From: Phycicoccus sp. Soil802
GTDB taxonomy: Bacteria; Actinomycetota; Actinomycetes; Actinomycetales; Dermatophilaceae
DNA: 64,000 bases
Direction of reading: 5' to 3'
Assembly (NCBI RefSeq): GCF_001429605.1
Contig: NZ_LMSS01000004.1
Location: 372,001-436,000 of the forward strand
The position numbers and the translations under genes are program-made. This document shows positions 8,019-16,270 of the stretch, in pieces; positions within the stretch are counted from its first letter, which is position 1, and each line of letters begins with the position of its first letter. Below the pieces are notes generated by a model. The model saw only the letters and a list, made by a program, of their open reading frames with translations, was not told the origin of the DNA and ran no database searches.

Positions 8019-8798
8019 ATGGACAGCTGGCCCCCCGAGAACCTGGTCAACCACCGTTCGTGGTCATCCGTGTGGCGTGCCGAGCATGCGATACCCGTGT
8101 TGGACTCGATCATTGACGTGGCGAGAGAACTGGTGCCGGGGACCCACGTCGGCATCTGCATCGCCGAGAGCACCGGTGCCCTCAGCACCCTGGCCGGCAC
8201 GGATCAGCTCGTGTTCGAGCTCGATGACCTGCAGTACGCCATGGACGAAGGTCCGTCCCTCACCACGGTCAGGGACGGCCACACCGTCATCATCGACGAC
8301 GCCGAGAGCGAGCATCGGTGGCCCAGGTTCATCCCGCACGCTGTCAACCTGGGCCTCCGGTCGCAGCTGAGTGTGCCCATCGAGGTCGAGGAGCAGACCG
8401 TCGGCGGGCTGACCTTCTACTCGACGACGCACACCCACCTCGACACCGACCGCTTGGCGCACGCGAGACTGTTTGCTGCGCAGGCCTCCCTGGCCGTGAC
8501 CCAGACCCGACGCGAGAGCCACCTTGCAGCGGCCCTCCAGTCGAGCCGGACGATCGGCAAGGCCACCGGGCTGATCATGGAGCGGTTCGATCTCGACGAC
8601 GAGGACGCCTTTGAGCGCCTGTCCCGTCTCTCGCAGATGTCCAACGTCAAGCTCCGTGACCTCGCGGCTCATCTCGTCAAGCAGTCCAACGACCTGCGAC
8701 ACGTGGCCGACGCGAGCACGGGCCACGTTCACCAACCCTCGGCCGGCCACGCAACTCGGGACCAGGACGAAGCCACCGACCTCGTGGTCCGTCTGTAG
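8019..8798 (+). CDS. GAF and ANTAR domain regulator
   Basis: A 259-residue protein with an N-terminal GAF-type sensory domain (about residues 20-165) and a C-terminal ANTAR domain (about 175-235: LQSSRTIGKATGLIMERFDL, then AFERLSRLSQ). ANTAR domains bind paired hexaloop RNA hairpins and prevent premature termination. ATG 8019 is preferred over TTG 7941 and ATG 8001 because GGAGG lies four bases upstream. It is a single-gene unit; the signal and RNA targets are unknown. A second GAF-ANTAR gene lies at 31572-32279. Confidence 0.9.
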   Translation: MDSWPPENLVNHRSWSSVWRAEHAIPVLDSIIDVARELVPGTHVGICIAESTGALSTLAGTDQLVFELDDLQYAMDEGPSLTTVRDGHTVIIDDAESEHRWPRFIPHAVNLGLRSQLSVPIEVEEQTVGGLTFYSTTHTHLDTDRLAHARLFAAQASLAVTQTRRESHLAAALQSSRTIGKATGLIMERFDLDDEDAFERLSRLSQMSNVKLRDLAAHLVKQSNDLRHVADASTGHVHQPSAGHATRDQDEATDLVVRL

Positions 8799-9089
8799 GT
8801 GCCGGCTTTTCCTGGCCTGTCGCCCGTGACGCCTTGAGGGTGCGTTCATGACGCGAGCCGGTGGCCAGCGGCTACCCGCCTCCCGCACACCGTGGGGTCC
8901 TCCTGAGCGTGATGGAGGCCCCGCATGTCCCTTTTCTCCTGTCACGTCGGCCGTGGATGGGTGTCTTCAGTAGTGCCACGACCCGGCGACAGCACCTGCA
9001 CGTGAAGTGAGCTGGCGAGCCGGACCGAGGTCGACATCGCAGGTCCATCAGCGGGCACCCCACAGGGCGCCCCGGAAGGAGAACTCGAC
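8799..9089. other. Intergenic region
   Basis: About 290 bases without a gene. Nothing recognised except a good ribosome-binding site (GAAGGAGAA) just before the secreted-protein start at 9090. Confidence 0.5.
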
Positions 9090-9746
9090 ATGTTGCACGC
9101 GAAGTCAGCAGGACACGGTGACGGCACGCCAGGCACGCTGCGCAAGACACTCAAGGCACGGGTCGTGGCCGTCGTCGCGGTAGCCACCGTCGCCACCACC
9201 GGTCCACTCCTCGTCGGCTCCGCGCAGGCCGCGTCGCCGCACAGTGGTGCGGCGAAGGCAGTCCACTCGTCCTCGAGCGCAGGCAAGGCCTGGAGCTACC
9301 AGGGGACGTGGACCGACAAGAAGGGCCGCACCGGCGCCGCCACGGTGGACATCGTGCCGCAGAAGTTCTGGAGCTCCGGCGACAAGCTGATGATGCGCAG
9401 CGCGGTCACCACCACCATGCAGGGCGCACGCGGCTCCGTGCCGCACACGAAGATGATGGACCTGCAGGTGAAGCAGGCGACCACCGGCGCCGTGGGCGCT
9501 GGGGTGACGGCCGCCAGCTGCGACATCCTCAACCTCGTGCTCGGGCCGCTGGACCTGAACCTGCTGGGACTCGAGGTCCACCTGAACCAGGTCGTGCTCG
9601 ACATCATCGCCACGACCGGGGCGGGCAACCTCCTGGGCAACCTCCTCTGCGCGGTCGCCGGCCTGCTCGACGGCGGCGGTCCGCTCGGCCAGATCGCCGG
9701 CCTGCTGAACCAGATCCTCGCCATCCTCAACGGACTGGGGGTCTGA
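9090..9746 (+). CDS. Secreted protein with actinobacterial CDILxLxLGPLxLxLLGL motif
   Basis: A 218-residue exported protein. A basic N-terminus (to about residue 24) precedes a hydrophobic core and an AQAA cleavage region near residue 48. The C-terminal third contains LVLGPLDLNLLGLEVHLNQ followed by GNLLGNLLCAVAGLL, a motif shared by many uncharacterised secreted actinobacterial proteins; its two cysteines probably pair. GGAAGGAGAA precedes the ATG. Function unknown. A shorter version of the motif (VRPLELDLMGLVVHVH) occurs in the protein encoded at 14188-14625. Confidence 0.8.
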   Translation: MLHAKSAGHGDGTPGTLRKTLKARVVAVVAVATVATTGPLLVGSAQAASPHSGAAKAVHSSSSAGKAWSYQGTWTDKKGRTGAATVDIVPQKFWSSGDKLMMRSAVTTTMQGARGSVPHTKMMDLQVKQATTGAVGAGVTAASCDILNLVLGPLDLNLLGLEVHLNQVVLDIIATTGAGNLLGNLLCAVAGLLDGGGPLGQIAGLLNQILAILNGLGV

Positions 9747-9992: not shown

Positions 9993-10868
9993 ATGAGCAC
10001 CACACACGAACCGGGACGCCCCGAGCACGACGAACGACGCGTCACCGACCGGGACCTGGACGCCAGCGATCGGCGTGGGGACAGGCCCGGCGAGCCGCTG
10101 GGTGACCACACTCGCGCTGACCGAACAGCTGGCGATCGGAGCGACGACCGGGACCGGGCTGACGATGGCGAGCGAGTCGACTACCGGGACCGGGCTGACG
10201 ATGGTGAGCGAGTCGACGACCGGGACCGGGCTGAGGATGGCGAGCGCGCGGCATACCGGGACCGCACGGAGGTGGTGGAGCGCGACCGTGTCGTCGACGG
10301 CGACCGGTTGGCCGCCGTCCAGGCGGACCGGTTCGGTGGGATGAAGCTCGGCTCGGCCTTCTTCGGGTGGCTCAGCGCCATGGGGATGGCCGTCATCCTC
10401 ATCGCGGTGCTGGCAGCCGCCGGGACGGCCGTGGGGCTGGGCACCGGGACGGACGCGGACGAGGCAGTGGATGCCGCGTCCGACAAGGTCGCCACCGTGG
10501 GTGTCGTGGGCGCCCTCGCCCTGGCGATCATCCTCTTCGTCAGCTACTTCTGCGGCGGCTACGTCGCGGGTCGGATGGCCCGCTTCAACGGCCCCAAGCA
10601 GGGTTTCGCCGTGTGGCTGTGGGCCCTGGTCGTCGCGGTGGTGGTGGCGGTCATCGGAGCCGTGGCGGGTAGCAAGTACGACGTGCTCGGCCAGCTGAAC
10701 AGCTTCCCGCGCCTGCCGGTCAAGACGTCTGAGCTGGACACCGCTGGTGTGGTGGCCCTGGTCCTGGCCGCCGTGACCAGCCTGCTCGGTGCGATCGCCG
10801 GTGGCGCCGCCGGCATGCGGTTCCACCGCCGGGTCGACCGGGTCGACCCCGTCGACGTCGCGGACTAG
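9993..10868 (+). CDS. Membrane protein with a charged repeat N-terminus
   Basis: A 291-residue protein. Residues 1-110 are very hydrophilic and include three and a half copies of a 12-residue Asp/Arg-rich unit (DRDRADDGERVD). Residues 115-280 contain four hydrophobic helices with an FCGGYVAGRMARFNG loop, resembling small YrzE/TIGR04086-like four-helix membrane proteins. AAGGAGGC lies eight bases upstream of the ATG. It converges on the stressosome operon across a hairpin. Function unknown; the repeat tail may be a flexible cytoplasmic linker. Confidence 0.8.
   Translation: MSTTHEPGRPEHDERRVTDRDLDASDRRGDRPGEPLGDHTRADRTAGDRSDDRDRADDGERVDYRDRADDGERVDDRDRAEDGERAAYRDRTEVVERDRVVDGDRLAAVQADRFGGMKLGSAFFGWLSAMGMAVILIAVLAAAGTAVGLGTGTDADEAVDAASDKVATVGVVGALALAIILFVSYFCGGYVAGRMARFNGPKQGFAVWLWALVVAVVVAVIGAVAGSKYDVLGQLNSFPRLPVKTSELDTAGVVALVLAAVTSLLGAIAGGAAGMRFHRRVDRVDPVDVAD
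10146..10265 (+). repeat. 36-bp in-frame tandem repeat
   Basis: Three full units and a partial one, beginning at 10146, 10182, 10218 and 10254, differing at only a few positions. They encode a 12-residue charged repeat. Copy number could vary by slippage without breaking the frame. Confidence 0.85.
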
Positions 10869-10932: not shown

Positions 10933-11226
10933 TCACTCGGATGACGTCCGCAGGCGTCGGTGGGCCATGTCGAAGGTCGCGAGCACCTCGAGGAGGAAGT
11001 CGCCGGCGGCGGCGGTGATCCGACCCACGTCCTCGCGGGGAGTGTCGGCCAGCACCTCGCCCAGGACGACGTGGTGCACGTGCACCAGGTCGAGCATGCT
11101 GACTCCTCGGACGATGGCCCGGCGGCCGAGGTCGTATCCGTCCGTGAGGGCGGCTTCGCTGCGTCGCGGGAGGTAGCGCTGGAACGCGACGCGGTAGTCG
11201 AGGGTGACGTCCTCCAGGTCACCCAC
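10933..11226 (-). CDS. Stand-alone RsbU N-terminal (RsbT-binding) domain protein
   Basis: A 97-residue all-helical protein that aligns by eye along its whole length with the N-terminal domain of Bacillus RsbU (RY...E.AL near the start, IVRGVSMLDLVHVHHVVLGE in the middle, FLLEVLATFDMA near the end). In RsbU this domain receives RsbT and activates an attached PP2C phosphatase. Here the phosphatase is absent and the gene ends after the domain. GTG start, overlapping rsbS by eight bases; fourth gene of the sigma-RsbT/RsbR/RsbS operon. Its likely partner is the RsbT module of the fusion protein (inference). Confidence 0.75.
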   Translation of the reverse strand: MGDLEDVTLDYRVAFQRYLPRRSEAALTDGYDLGRRAIVRGVSMLDLVHVHHVVLGEVLADTPREDVGRITAAAGDFLLEVLATFDMAHRRLRTSSE

Positions 11227-11611
11227 GGCGTCCGCCTGCCGCGCGGCCGTTGACCCGCGCCAGGTAGGCCAGCCCCTCTTCGAGGTCCAACGACGTCGGC
11301 ACGTCGCCCATGTCCATGCCCAGGCGCACCATCGAGAAGGCGACCTCCGGTTGGATCCCCACGATGACCGTCACGGCTCCCCGCAGGCGCGCGATGTCAG
11401 CGATCGACCGGAGGGTGCGCGAGGCGAAGCTGTCGATCACGTCGAGGGCAGCCACGTCGATGATCACCCCACGAGCACGGTGCTCACCGATCCGGCTGAC
11501 GAGGTCGTTCTGGAACCGGACCATCTCCGAGTCGTCCAGGGCAGTGTGGACCGACGCGACGAGGGTGTCACCCTGACGCAGGATGGAGACGAGAGCCGGT
11601 CCTGAGTTCAC
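11219..11611 (-). CDS. rsbS: RsbS-like STAS-domain stressosome protein
   Basis: A 130-residue single STAS domain. The segment VIIDVAALDVIDSFASR is the RsbS signature; Ser61 in DSF corresponds to the serine phosphorylated by RsbT in Bacillus. With RsbR such proteins build the stressosome core that sequesters RsbT. GTG start overlapping the RsbR stop (GTGA, 11608-11611); the next gene overlaps its end by eight bases. Confidence 0.9.
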   Translation of the reverse strand: MNSGPALVSILRQGDTLVASVHTALDDSEMVRFQNDLVSRIGEHRARGVIIDVAALDVIDSFASRTLRSIADIARLRGAVTVIVGIQPEVAFSMVRLGMDMGDVPTSLDLEEGLAYLARVNGRAAGGRRG

Positions 11612-12507
11612 GAGCCGTCCGTCACCGCCTTGCGGGTGACGGTGAAGCCGAGCAGTCGTTCGGCCTCCTCGAGGCCGCCCTGCAGGTCGCCGATGGTGTT
11701 CATCTTGCTGAGGTCGACGCCGATGGTGACCAGGGTCTGGGCGATGGTGGGGGACAGGCCGGTGATGATCACGCTGGCGCCCATCAGCCGGGACGCATCC
11801 ACGGTCTGGACCAGGTGGTTGGCGACCGTCTCGTCCACCTCCGGTGCGCCCGTGATGTCGATGACGACGACCTTGGCCCGGTGGGTGCGGATGCCGCTGA
11901 GGAGCTGTTCGGTGAGCTGTCGGGCCCGCTCGCCGTCCAGGACCCCGATGATCGGCAGGATGAGGAGCCGTTCGCGCACCGGGAGCACGGGCGTGGACAG
12001 CTCGCGGATGGCGTCCTGCTGCTGCCTGATGACGCGTTCGCGCTCGTCCACGAAGCTGACCGCGACGGTGTTGGCGATCCGGTTGGCAGCCGGCTCGTAG
12101 GCGTCGAGGATGCGGTTGAGGAGACCGAAGTCGCGCTGGTACTTCTCGAACAGCGAACGGGCCAGGACGTCGCGCAGGAGCAGCACGATGCCGACGACCT
12201 CGTGCGTCTCGACACCCCGCGGGATGATGCGTTCAGACAGGTCCCGTGCATAGTGCTGCAACGCCTCGACGCTGCCTGTCTCGAGCACCTCGACGTAGTT
12301 GTCGTAGACCGACGTGGTCTCAGCGGACATCTCCTGCGGGGTCATCGCCTCCAGCAGGTGGGCATCGCGGATGCGGGAAGCCCACTCGTCGCGGAGCTTC
12401 GCGCGGTGTTCCCGAAGGTGTGCCACCAGCTGGGGCAGCAGCTGGTCGCCACTCGACGACGCCTCGACCTGCTCCGAGCTCTCCTGCGTTTCGTCGTCCT
12501 GGCTCAT
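11608..12507 (-). CDS. rsbR: RsbR-like stressosome protein (RsbRD_N + STAS)
   Basis: A 299-residue protein. Residues 25-160 match the RsbRD-type N-terminal sensory domain (HLREHRAKLRDEWASRI at its start); residues 185-285 are a STAS domain with VVVIDITGAPEVDETVANHL, which includes a threonine in the place phosphorylated in RsbR proteins. ATG 12507 overlaps the stop of the sigma-RsbT fusion (ATGA). The signal is unknown; the N-terminal domain is not the globin-like one of Bacillus RsbRA. Confidence 0.9.
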   Translation of the reverse strand: MSQDDETQESSEQVEASSSGDQLLPQLVAHLREHRAKLRDEWASRIRDAHLLEAMTPQEMSAETTSVYDNYVEVLETGSVEALQHYARDLSERIIPRGVETHEVVGIVLLLRDVLARSLFEKYQRDFGLLNRILDAYEPAANRIANTVAVSFVDERERVIRQQQDAIRELSTPVLPVRERLLILPIIGVLDGERARQLTEQLLSGIRTHRAKVVVIDITGAPEVDETVANHLVQTVDASRLMGASVIITGLSPTIAQTLVTIGVDLSKMNTIGDLQGGLEEAERLLGFTVTRKAVTDGS

Positions 12508-13592
12508 GCTGTTCCCTTCTTGTCGAACCACTTGGTCATCGTCACGGTGGTGCCGTGTCCCGGCTCGGACACGATGTTGAACTCGTCCATGAGGCGTCGG
12601 GCTCCGGGCAGCCCGAGCCCCAGCCCGTCGTACGTGCTGAAACCGTCCTTGAGGGCGACCTCGACGTCGTCGATGCCGGGGCCGGTGTCGCGTGCCACCA
12701 CGTGGATCCCGGCCCGCGGCCCGTCCACGAGCTCGATGGTCACCTCGCCGCTCCTCGCGAACCGGACGATGTTCCGCGCCACCTCCGAGACTGCCGTCGC
12801 GAGCATGGTCAGGTCTGCACCTGAGAAGCCCGCGCGGATCGCCAGCTCCCGTGCCGCCTGGCGGGCGGCGACGATGTCTGGGTCTGCGCTGATCGCCACG
12901 TGGATCTCGTTGTCGCGCAGCGGTCCTCGGCCGAGGAGGGGCTGGCTGAGCTTGGCGCAGAGGTCGCACTCGAGCAGGTGCCTGCCCGCATCCACCTCGC
13001 GCTGGCGGCGCCGGTCGGCGCTCGACAGCGCCAGCAGCACCGGGCGGCACTCGTCGGTCGGGGGTTCGGTGTGCTCGAGGGCCAGGAGGTACTCCACCCG
13101 CAAGCGGGCCCGGGTCCGCTTCAGCTGGGCGGCGACCGCGCCGGCGGTGCTGCCCGAGTCCTCGGCCAGGCTCCGCGTCGCCTGCCCACTGATCTCGTGG
13201 GCCAGCAGGACCTCACGCTCCCGGTCGGTCAGCCGGCGGAGGGCCTCGTTGATGGCGGACTGCTCCTCGGACGCGACGACCACGTCCTCGGCCTCGTCCG
13301 GCACGCTGGGATCGAGGGCCCGGTGGCGGTTGCGCGACTCACTGTCCTTGCGGCGCCACATGGTCGCCATGACGTTGCGGGCCGTGGCGATCGCGTACGG
13401 CTCGATCATCCCCGGCTCGATGCGGTCCTCGGCCTCGAGCACGCGCACGAGGGTCTCCTGCACCAGGTCCTCGGCGGCAGGGTGCTCCCCGACCCGCGCA
13501 GCCACGATCCGCCGCAGCATGGGGATCAGGGCTGCGACGTCGACCGCCCCACCCGGCTGCGCCGGCTCGTCGGGTACCCGCGCCGTGCTCAC
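12504..13592 (-). CDS. Sigma factor - zinc finger - RsbT-type kinase fusion protein
   Basis: A 362-residue fusion. Residues 20-90 are sigma region 2 (HPAAEDLVQETLVRVLEAED, YAIATARNVMATMWRR); 112-165 are region 4 (LTDREREVLLAHEISGQATR). C182 and H205-x3-C209-x2-C212 have the spacing of a zinc-binding anti-sigma (ZAS, zf-HC2) fold. Residues 232-358 are an RsbT/GHKL ATPase with N-box VSEVARNIVRFARSG, DTGPGI and GLGLGLPGARRLMDEF. In Bacillus, RsbT is separate and reaches sigma-B through RsbU, RsbV and RsbW. GTG 13592 follows other sigma N-termini; the frame extends upstream but becomes Arg/Pro-rich shadow. First gene of the rsb operon. Confidence 0.9.
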   Translation of the reverse strand: MSTARVPDEPAQPGGAVDVAALIPMLRRIVAARVGEHPAAEDLVQETLVRVLEAEDRIEPGMIEPYAIATARNVMATMWRRKDSESRNRHRALDPSVPDEAEDVVVASEEQSAINEALRRLTDREREVLLAHEISGQATRSLAEDSGSTAGAVAAQLKRTRARLRVEYLLALEHTEPPTDECRPVLLALSSADRRRQREVDAGRHLLECDLCAKLSQPLLGRGPLRDNEIHVAISADPDIVAARQAARELAIRAGFSGADLTMLATAVSEVARNIVRFARSGEVTIELVDGPRAGIHVVARDTGPGIDDVEVALKDGFSTYDGLGLGLPGARRLMDEFNIVSEPGHGTTVTMTKWFDKKGTA

Positions 13593-13764
13593 GACTGCGA
13601 CACTACGCCCACAGCGCCTCTGACACGCCCCTGACCTGCACTGATGTATGCCGCCGCGGCGCCTTGGCCGCGTCCGAGCGGCACGGCTGGAGCCGGCGGC
13701 ACCGCGCGGCGCCGAGAGAGGTACCTCGTATCCCAGCGCCGCGCGGCCGCCCCACACACCCCCG

Positions 13765-13989
13765 TCAGGTCGACGTGTGAGGCCGCTCTCCAGCCGCTCC
13801 AGCGGGCTCGGCTCGCTCGGGTGCGCCGGGATCGCGGGCCCTGCCCTGGTCGACGCGGACCTCCTCGAGGACCCCTTCCAGCACCGGGCTCTCGTCGAGG
13901 GGGTCGACATAGCCGGGCGGTGGCGGCGGATCGCGGGGGATGGGTCCCGGGATCGAGTCCCCATCGGTGGGGCCTGTGGGTTCACCCAT
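13765..13989 (-). CDS. Small Pro/Asp/Glu-rich hypothetical protein
   Basis: A 74-residue acidic protein with a PRDPPPPPGYVDPLDE stretch; no domain recognised. It starts eight bases inside the preceding small membrane gene, and GGAGGGGG lies 12 bases before the ATG. The run of coupled starts with the two upstream genes supports it as real. Function unknown. Confidence 0.45.
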   Translation of the reverse strand: MGEPTGPTDGDSIPGPIPRDPPPPPGYVDPLDESPVLEGVLEEVRVDQGRARDPGAPERAEPAGAAGERPHTST

Positions 13990-14191
13990 GGTGCGATGCT
14001 TCCCCCTCCACGCGGCGCCGTGGCACCTCTGTTTGACGTATCGGCGCGGCTGCCCTCGACTCGCGGGGGCCGACTGCCTGGCGCCGCCTGACGGTGCGCT
14101 GGCTGGTGTCCGTCGCCCATACCTCCATGCGCTGGAGGACGGGCATCAGGGCGAGCACGACCACCGGCACCGCCAGGGCAACGCCCCTCAT
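13982..14191 (-). CDS. Small single-pass membrane protein
   Basis: A 69-residue protein with one N-terminal hydrophobic helix (about residues 3-21) and a basic tail. The ATG overlaps the upstream stop by four bases (ATGA, 14188-14191), and the next gene overlaps its end by eight. No family recognised; support comes from coupling and the clear membrane segment. Confidence 0.45.
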   Translation of the reverse strand: MRGVALAVPVVVLALMPVLQRMEVWATDTSQRTVRRRQAVGPRESRAAAPIRQTEVPRRRVEGEASHHG

Positions 14192-14625
14192 CGCAGCTCG
14201 CCGCCGCGTGCGCGCCCTGCCCCGGGACGAACATTCCGCCGCGCAGCACTGCGGGCTGAGGGAAAGACCTTGCCGGGCTCGATCGCGAAGGAGTGGACGT
14301 GCACCACCAGCCCCATGAGGTCCAGCTCGAGTGGCCGGACCACGGGGTGCAGGCCCAGCTCATCTCTGACCAGGTCCGCCGGGGCCGTCGTCCGCCTCGA
14401 CTCCCGGCCGACGACCGTCCCATCGGGCTCCCGGAGCTCACCCGTGAACACACCCGTCACAAAGGCTCCCCGGGGGGCCAGGACCAGTCGTTGCAGCCGG
14501 AGGTGGCCGGTCATCACCCCTTCGTCCCCTCGAGGGGAGCGGAACGTGCCGGTGAGCGGTATGCCGTCGCCCTCCGAGGTTGGCGCCTCAGGGTTGCGAC
14601 GGGGTCGGAAGGCGATCACGGTCAT
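14188..14625 (-). CDS. Hypothetical protein with a GPLxLxLxGL-type motif
   Basis: A 145-residue protein beginning MTVIAFRPRR. The central part is beta-rich (GVMTGHLRLQRLVLAPRGAF), followed by VRPLELDLMGLVVHVHSFAI, similar in pattern to the motif in the secreted protein at 9090-9746. No signal peptide seen. ATG 14625 has GGAG seven bases upstream, better than the earlier possible start at 14709. First of three overlapping small genes. Function unknown. Confidence 0.6.
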   Translation of the reverse strand: MTVIAFRPRRNPEAPTSEGDGIPLTGTFRSPRGDEGVMTGHLRLQRLVLAPRGAFVTGVFTGELREPDGTVVGRESRRTTAPADLVRDELGLHPVVRPLELDLMGLVVHVHSFAIEPGKVFPSARSAARRNVRPGAGRARGGELR

Positions 14626-14715: not shown

Positions 14716-14860
14716 GGTCTGTGGGTGATCGGCCCTTCACCAATGAAGACCCCTTCGAGCGTTCACGTGACGCGGCGCTCACGGCGCAACGGGGCTCCAG
14801 AGCGGCGTGGCGCGCCTCTGGGACCCCAACCGTCACACGCTCCTCGCGTCATGTCCTGGA

Positions 14861-15409: not shown

Positions 15410-16270
15410 CTAGAGCCAGGCGTGGATCCGCACCGTGGTGCCGACCTTGCCGGACCGGACCTGTACCAGGTCGCAGAGCTGGTTGGCCATCCACAGGCCG
15501 TGGCCGAGCTCGTCCGCCGACGAAGGTGGGAGCCTGCCTTCCATGGGGTTGACGATGCGGCCGACTCCGCGCACCTCGCAGACCAGTGCGTGGTGCTCCT
15601 CCCAGATCCGGAGCTCACTGGCCCCGCGACCGTGCCGCACGCTGTTGACGGCCACCTCGTGGACGCCGAGGACGAGGTCGTCGGTCCGCTCGGTGTCCAG
15701 CCCCACGGACGACGCGTGCGCCCGGACGTCGGCGCGGACGTCCGCGTAGTCGTCAGCGCCGAAGGACCGGTGCGAGACCACCACCTGTACCTGGGTCCGC
15801 GGCAGCTCGGCCTTGAACATCTTGCGCAGGTGGTGCACCCCGCCGTAGGTGGTGCTGCCCCGGTGGGTCTCGACGTCGACCACCACGGGGTGGGACCGGT
15901 GGGCCTCCGCGACCACGTCCGCCGGCAAGGTGGCGGTGTCGTAGGGGCAGAGCAGCCACAACGGGGTGTCCGTGTCGACTGCCATGTTGAGCAGTGCCTC
16001 GTGCATCTGGCACTCGGCGAGCTCAGCCATCCGCCGGCCGTGCCAGATCGGCTCGCCGATGCCGCGCACGGGGCGACCGGGGTGCTGGTCGGTGAAGGCG
16101 CGCCACGCCGGGATGATCCGCGCCGGGTTCGCGCCCAGGCGCTCCATGTCGACGAACCTGACCGCGCCCGCTTCGCCGTCCAGCGCGTCGCGCAGCACGT
16201 CGATCCGGCCCGGGGTGACCGCCACCATCACTGCCTGACCGGCCTCGAGACCTTCCCGGATGAACGGCAC
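15410..16270 (-). CDS. RsbA-like anti-sigma regulator (MEDS + HATPase)
   Basis: The coding similarity runs past the first usable start. An N-terminal MEDS (DcmR-type sensory) domain covers about residues 1-150; a GHKL-type ATPase with LGVHEVAVNSVRHG and DELGHGLWMANQLC follows. Such proteins act as anti-sigma kinases or switch proteins. GTG 16270 is the first canonical start, but conserved family sequence (RHEAFFWEGDDQFVAGT) is encoded in frame up to at least 16324 with no ATG, GTG or TTG before an in-frame stop near 16553. Either a rare start is used or a frameshift (biological or sequencing) separates the true N-terminus. Confidence 0.85.
   Translation of the reverse strand: MPFIREGLEAGQAVMVAVTPGRIDVLRDALDGEAGAVRFVDMERLGANPARIIPAWRAFTDQHPGRPVRGIGEPIWHGRRMAELAECQMHEALLNMAVDTDTPLWLLCPYDTATLPADVVAEAHRSHPVVVDVETHRGSTTYGGVHHLRKMFKAELPRTQVQVVVSHRSFGADDYADVRADVRAHASSVGLDTERTDDLVLGVHEVAVNSVRHGRGASELRIWEEHHALVCEVRGVGRIVNPMEGRLPPSSADELGHGLWMANQLCDLVQVRSGKVGTTVRIHAWL

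Follow-up and report, generated by a model that had tools for sequence, protein, structure and literature searches.

A sigma factor and the stressosome kinase RsbT in one chain: a candidate one-step route from stress sensor to promoter in Phycicoccus

A 64,000-nucleotide window of the Phycicoccus sp. Soil802 genome (contig NZ_LMSS01000004.1, positions 372,001 to 436,000) contains a four-gene operon in which the stressosome kinase RsbT and a sigma factor are parts of a single polypeptide. Given the anatomy of this fusion and the known roles of its domains, it is moderately probable that release of RsbT from a stressosome directly frees the sigma factor, which would serve a small local regulon. 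The chances are evenly balanced for a more far-reaching proposal, in which the stressosome kinase is itself the sigma factor, the path from a megadalton sensor to promoters is a single step that involves no phosphatase, anti-sigma factor or anti-anti-sigma factor, the damping phosphosite has been lost and a bare RsbU_N domain is the direct activator.

The operon occupies positions 10933–13592 of the window on the minus strand, in the order fusion, RsbR, RsbS and RsbU_N, with successive overlaps of ATGA, GTGA and 8 bases (Table 1). The original prediction, made from the letters of the DNA and their open reading frames, had placed four overlapping genes here, and its coordinates, strand and order were all correct. 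It had also read the first gene as a single chain made up of sigma regions 2 and 4, the C182/H205/C209/C212 cluster and an entire RsbT, a description borne out by Pfam, by the residues and by their invariance. The sigma factor is of the extracytoplasmic function (ECF) type, having regions 2 and 4 only. The CHCC cluster sits between the sigma part and the ATPase; Pfam zinc-finger models gave no match in the fusion, and the cluster is called from its residues and their conservation. Zinc-associated anti-sigma (ZAS) domains have their ligands spaced as HxxxCxxC. This spacing, with an upstream ligand, was found in all 28 distinct fused proteins (33 loci minus five second copies from the same genomes), and C182, H205, C209 and C212 were invariant among them; zinc binding is putative. 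Equally invariant were E270, N274, D302, G304, G306, G323/325/327 and T348/349, which we take to play the customary roles in ATP binding; loss of the RsbT catalytic residues, named beforehand as a possible objection, was looked for and is not so. No transmembrane helix follows the zinc finger (best 19-residue hydropathy 1.20, versus 1.63–2.35 in nine membrane-type relatives). At 21 of the 28 fused loci, versus 1% in shuffles, a TANNNT box lies 5–8 bases ahead of an in-frame start; this closeness to the start supports the GTG start at 13592 and suggests that the fusion mRNA is leaderless.

The follow-up proposed with the prediction, a database search for sigma, zinc-finger and RsbT chains beside RsbR, RsbS and a bare RsbU_N, found 28 fused genomes. 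In the family of the window genome, 27 of 186 genomes matched, 26 with the full fusion and one (G139) with the RsbT part only. Outside the family, 396 genomes drawn from the order yielded no full fusion; 396 drawn from the phylum yielded two, both in another class (G809 and G748), to which 66 genomes of that class added none. Five of the fused loci are named, among them Pedococcus bigeumensis and two Phycicoccus strains. A TGA was flagged in six of the full-length fused genome matches, and the parts were still in one open frame at each of these loci. RsbR was present in 26 of the 186 family genomes, exactly the 26 with the full-length fusion. In a tree of joined RsbR-STAS, RsbS and RsbT sequences, a branch supported at 100/99 separated the 28 fused rows from the 22 unfused rows, the fused loci forming one clade. 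Plasmid carriage was considered and rejected: 40 records matched, none covering 80% of the query, and in the ten listed the match was to the RsbT part.

The two genes that follow the fusion encode the core of a stressosome. The RsbR of the window aligned with a Listeria RsbR chain across both domains (E 5e-36), and the Ser59-type residue of RsbS is kept in 28/28 fused and 22/22 unfused loci. The T205-type site of RsbR is Glu226 in the window and is Ser or Thr in 0/28 fused versus 18/22 unfused loci (Fisher 4e-10, relatedness ignored); the 28 fused loci have E (16), Q (6), V (3), A (2) or H (1) at this position. At the T171-type site, Ser or Thr was found in 22/28 fused and 20/22 unfused loci. 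The T205-type site, named after B. subtilis T205 and equivalent to Listeria T209, was placed by means of Listeria mutant chains in the PDB and the residue numbers of PMC12154155. The T205 phosphosite inhibits signalling under extreme stress and is dephosphorylated by RsbX (PMC3944199); no RsbX-like gene was recognised within the operon. Among the genes listed around the operon, most of them without a domain search, neither rsbV nor rsbW was recognised; the search for RsbV was confined to this list. Upstream of the operon, at 15410–16270, lies an RsbA-type gene combining a MEDS sensor with a HATPase (NF041045, E 9e-91); none was detected close to the operon at the other 27 fused loci searched.

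The last gene had been predicted to encode only the RsbU_N domain, with no PP2C phosphatase, and a Pfam search confirmed this. In a whole-genome search it was the single RsbU_N of the window genome; three SpoIIE-type PP2C genes lie elsewhere, and no RsbU with both the N-domain and a PP2C phosphatase was found in that genome. With a single RsbU_N that lacks a phosphatase, the usual step from RsbT to the RsbU phosphatase is therefore not available. The domain was free-standing in 28/28 fused genomes (29 loci, one genome counted twice), the protein ending 0–25 residues past the match; for the two loci of the other class, whose proteins are 127 and 138 residues long, one of the two served as the query. 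In unfused loci, RsbU_N continued for at least 150 residues in 16/16 cases tested, 15 of which run off the locus end; these 16 are the loci where the first search detected the domain, and in the other unfused loci none was seen in the available locus DNA. The parts available downstream of RsbU_N in five unfused actinobacterial loci (L055, L059, L061, L066 and L069) contained HisKA_3, GGDEF, PAS or GAF domains. Since RsbU_N stands alone in fused loci and is extended in unfused ones, the output of the stressosome seems to have been relocated from RsbU_N to RsbT.

Table 1. Features of the fusion operon and its surroundings, in window coordinates
Feature	Position	Strand	Details
Fusion gene	12504-13592	-	362 residues, single frame, GTG start at 13592
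Fusion: ECF sigma region 2	13344-13535	-	Pfam Sigma70_r2, residues 20-83, E 1e-11
Fusion: sigma region 4	13101-13256	-	Pfam Sigma70_r4_2, residues 113-164, E 5e-6 (barely above cut-off)
Fusion: CHCC zinc-finger-like cluster	12957-13049	-	C182/H205/C209/C212; called from residues and 28/28 conservation
Fusion: RsbT ATPase	12531-12887	-	Pfam HATPase_c_2, residues 236-354, E 1e-14
-10-like box TAGTGT	13600-13605	-	7 bases ahead of the GTG start
RsbR	11608-12507	-	N-terminal RsbR-type domain (Pfam RsbRD_N, exactly at cut-off) and STAS
RsbS	11219-11611	-	Single STAS domain; Ser59-type site kept (IDSF)
Bare RsbU_N	10933-11226	-	97 residues, Pfam RsbU_N E 5e-16; no linker, no phosphatase
Motif CGCGTCAC-N17-TCTTCA	14736-14774	-	Upstream of c4, c10 and fusion; matrix score 32.0
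Weaker motif copy	8938-8977	+	Upstream of c0; score 11.7
c4, small protein upstream of fusion	14188-14625	-	Seems related to c0 at 21-24% identity, a low figure on which both c0/c4 alignments and the c4 start depend; upstream of fusion in 8 other loci
c10, small proline-rich open reading frame directly upstream of fusion	13765-13989	-	Likeness to open reading frames of L038 and L039 by eye only
c0, candidate target	9090-9746	+	Start resembles a signal peptide (by eye); without a Pfam or NCBIfam family
Membrane protein (by eye) adjoining operon, weak candidate target	10272-10868	+	G036 relative in motif-headed cluster

In the scheme that we favour, the RsbT domain of unstressed cells would be docked on the RsbR/RsbS core and the sigma factor held there, with the zinc-finger-like domain helping to hold the docked sigma factor shut. 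Under stress, the RsbT domain would phosphorylate the Ser59-type residue of RsbS and the whole sigma-RsbT chain would be released, this being the activating step. The bare RsbU_N would then receive the freed RsbT domain and keep the sigma factor in an open, working form, and the released sigma factor would act at CGCGTCAY-N18-TCTTCA promoters to transcribe c0, c4 and the region of its own operon. That release frees the sigma factor was already the idea of the original prediction. It is favoured by the conserved fusion and its ATP-site residues, the RsbS phosphosite, the RsbR and RsbS genes always beside it, the RsbU_N without a phosphatase and the motif tied to the operon; we infer the binding of the fusion to the core and the inactivity of the docked sigma factor, as we do docking, phosphorylation, release, the part played by RsbU_N and the reading of the motif by the fusion sigma factor. 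The original prediction did not include the likeness of the sigma and zinc-finger half to a membrane-anchored type of sigma factor, the loss of the T205-type site from RsbR or the candidate targets.

The candidate promoter was recognised from the c0 gene, whose relatives have CGCGTCAY-N18-TCTTCA in common upstream. c0 occurs in 23 of the 26 fused family genomes, always within ~4 kb of the sigma start, and in 4 of the 160 others; for c10, a tblastn search found no relatives. With a matrix built from 21 sites, the window excluded, the two best matches in the window were at 14774 (minus strand, 32.0) and 8938 (plus strand, 11.7); the third-best match reached 10.4 and the maximum in the reversed window was 7.1, which makes the c0 site of the window a weak one. 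The motif preceded c0 in 23/23 fused genomes with c0 (score at least 11.7) versus 0/4 unfused genomes (2.6 or lower), and a scan of the 28 fused loci gave 47 matches above 12, training sites counted, versus none when reversed.

Several observations weigh against the proposed scheme. Seventeen of the 23 c0 sites had trained the matrix, which leaves six independent ones (lowest score 11.7; highest unfused 2.6), and 10 of the 47 matches fall within the RsbR coding sequence. Exact N17/N18 matches occurred in 75 of the 186 genomes and are mostly background genome-wide; away from the operon, exact N18 copies numbered 7 in the 26 fused genomes versus 14 in the 160 others, four of the 7 being in two sister genomes, and one-mismatch matches numbered 122 in the 26 fused versus 87 in 26 other genomes. 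In the RsbR of the window, moreover, the T171-type priming residue is a glycine (Gly192). The motif may belong to another regulator, the regulon of the fusion being a different one; this is a possible but doubtful alternative, for which the absence of any motif match in G809 and G748, the fused loci of the other class, and the little excess elsewhere in the genomes both speak, and against which stands the absence of the motif upstream of c0 in all four unfused genomes with c0. A wider regulon was rejected, the exact and one-mismatch genome scans showing only a small excess in fused genomes.

Copies of the motif were also seen near other genes. In the sister genomes G036 and G037, copies lie ~430 and ~620 bases ahead of a GAF-ANTAR gene; a copy in G036 heads a cluster of mechanosensitive-helix, PRC-DUF2382 and 10272-like membrane protein genes, and one in G037 precedes a low-molecular-weight phosphatase gene. 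A GAF-ANTAR gene is found near the operon of the window as well (8019–8798). At L122, L133, L135, L140 and L141, a copy just upstream of the fusion points away from the fusion gene, so a divergent gene may be co-controlled.

Two arginines of the RsbT domain, which we take to match R19 and R23 of B. subtilis RsbT (the positions being mapped on the B. subtilis sequence as we assume it to read), were invariant in 28/28 fused proteins (27/27 without the window); the third position, N24, is not kept. All three residues have been implicated in RsbU binding in B. subtilis, where RsbT grips the RsbU N-domain plus a linker (PMC12143880). That linker is absent from the RsbU_N protein of the window, and RsbU_N is without linker or effector in 28/28 fused genomes, so it may only bind. 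It might then be a sink or brake that captures the released fusion and keeps it inactive, leaving the sigma factor to work in a transient free state only; this is unlikely, since RsbU_N is on the activating side in known systems (PMC12143880, PMC9237108).

Slightly less probable again is that the ATPase domain is a cis clamp on its own sigma factor, in the manner of RsbW or SpoIIAB, with RsbS as the anti-anti-sigma factor that pulls the clamp off. In favour of this, the domain shares a chain with a sigma factor, and among solved structures SpoIIAB anti-sigma factors rank nearest to it, RsbW coming further down the matches. However, it is ~45–63% identical to stand-alone RsbT-like proteins, mostly encoded beside RsbR and RsbS genes, and of the ten other HATPase_c_2 genes above cut-off in the same genome, six showed no convincing similarity to it (best E 0.085). 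RsbU_N, which an RsbW-like role does not need, has also been kept, and we judge the clamp less likely than the release model. Besides its fusion, G175 has an orphan RsbT-like gene (L119:6446–6865; 57%), beside which no RsbR or RsbS was found.

The origin of the fusion is suggested by relatives of its two halves. Nine loci matched the sigma and zinc-finger part only and continue into a hydrophobic helix and a further 107–202 residues; two more were found later, and the corresponding half of the fusion is 41–51% identical to these 11 membrane-type relatives. A layout of sigma factor, zinc finger and transmembrane segment has been described for ECF48, ECF52 and ECF53 (PMC8999054). With such relatives for one half and stand-alone RsbT relatives for the other, the fusion resembles a membrane-anchored sigma factor in which RsbT has taken the place of the anchor, and it likely arose by RsbT replacing the membrane part. 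The tree of the sigma part agrees weakly: a branch splits fused from membrane types (88/84, not starred), and the groups broke up when distant own-genome sigma factors were added. At L193:3–242 and L194:6631–6996, membrane-type sigma genes adjoin a gene resembling, by eye, the mechanosensitive-helix gene of the G036 cluster.

The existence of the same sigma and zinc-finger pair without RsbT in these relatives, together with the invariance of its four ligands in 28/28 fused proteins, would suit a zinc-finger domain that is the real switch, responding to redox or zinc, with RsbT docking merely positioning or dosing the sigma factor. This we regard as improbable, because none of the 26 fused family genomes lacks RsbR and every ATP-site residue has been preserved. 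An artefact of assembly or gene decay, including the sequencing-error joining that the original prediction had named as its own possible undoing, has a negligible chance: the genus-mate G139 does retain the RsbT part alone, closely after a c0-type motif (L118:7310–7790; sigma part gone, RsbR not found), as a deletion scar, but the three parts share one open frame in 28/28 fused loci, and nonsynonymous divergence (dN 0.09–0.24) is below synonymous divergence (dS 0.57–2.47) in every fusion domain against five relatives. Because it recurs in 26 of the 186 family genomes and in two of another class with its ligands and ATP-site residues invariant, the fusion architecture is near certain to be real.

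Among the matches listed in a search of the open-access literature, judged mostly by title and the start of the abstract, no report of a sigma-RsbT fusion was found. The arrangement suggests that stressosome output is movable from the RsbU_N partner to RsbT, and the particle could then control transcription directly. With the output and the released protein joined in one chain, transcription could serve as a single-step readout of stressosome release. Such a readout would ease testing of the disputed release trigger, since whether release occurs by phosphorylation or otherwise is argued (PMC3944199). The system also provides a four-gene kit for sigma control together with a candidate promoter.

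Compared with the RsbRST stressosome of B. subtilis and Listeria, the operon has the RsbR domains, RsbS with its Ser59-type site, RsbT with its ATP-site residues and an RsbU_N domain; it has neither a separate RsbT, which here forms one chain with an ECF sigma factor, nor the T171 and T205 phosphosites in the RsbR of the window, the latter not being Ser or Thr in 28/28 fused loci. It likewise differs from the cascade leading to SigB in that RsbU_N is without a phosphatase and its sigma factor belongs to the ECF class. The resemblance to ECF48, ECF52 and ECF53 is one of layout: regions 2 and 4 are followed by a CHCC zinc-finger-like domain, and RsbT stands where those proteins have a membrane helix and an outer domain. 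Stressosome modules with other outputs, in which RsbU_N is carried on GGDEF proteins or histidine kinases (PMC12143880, PMC9237108), also combine this sensing core with an effector of another kind, but there the effector is attached to RsbU_N, whereas here it is attached to RsbT.

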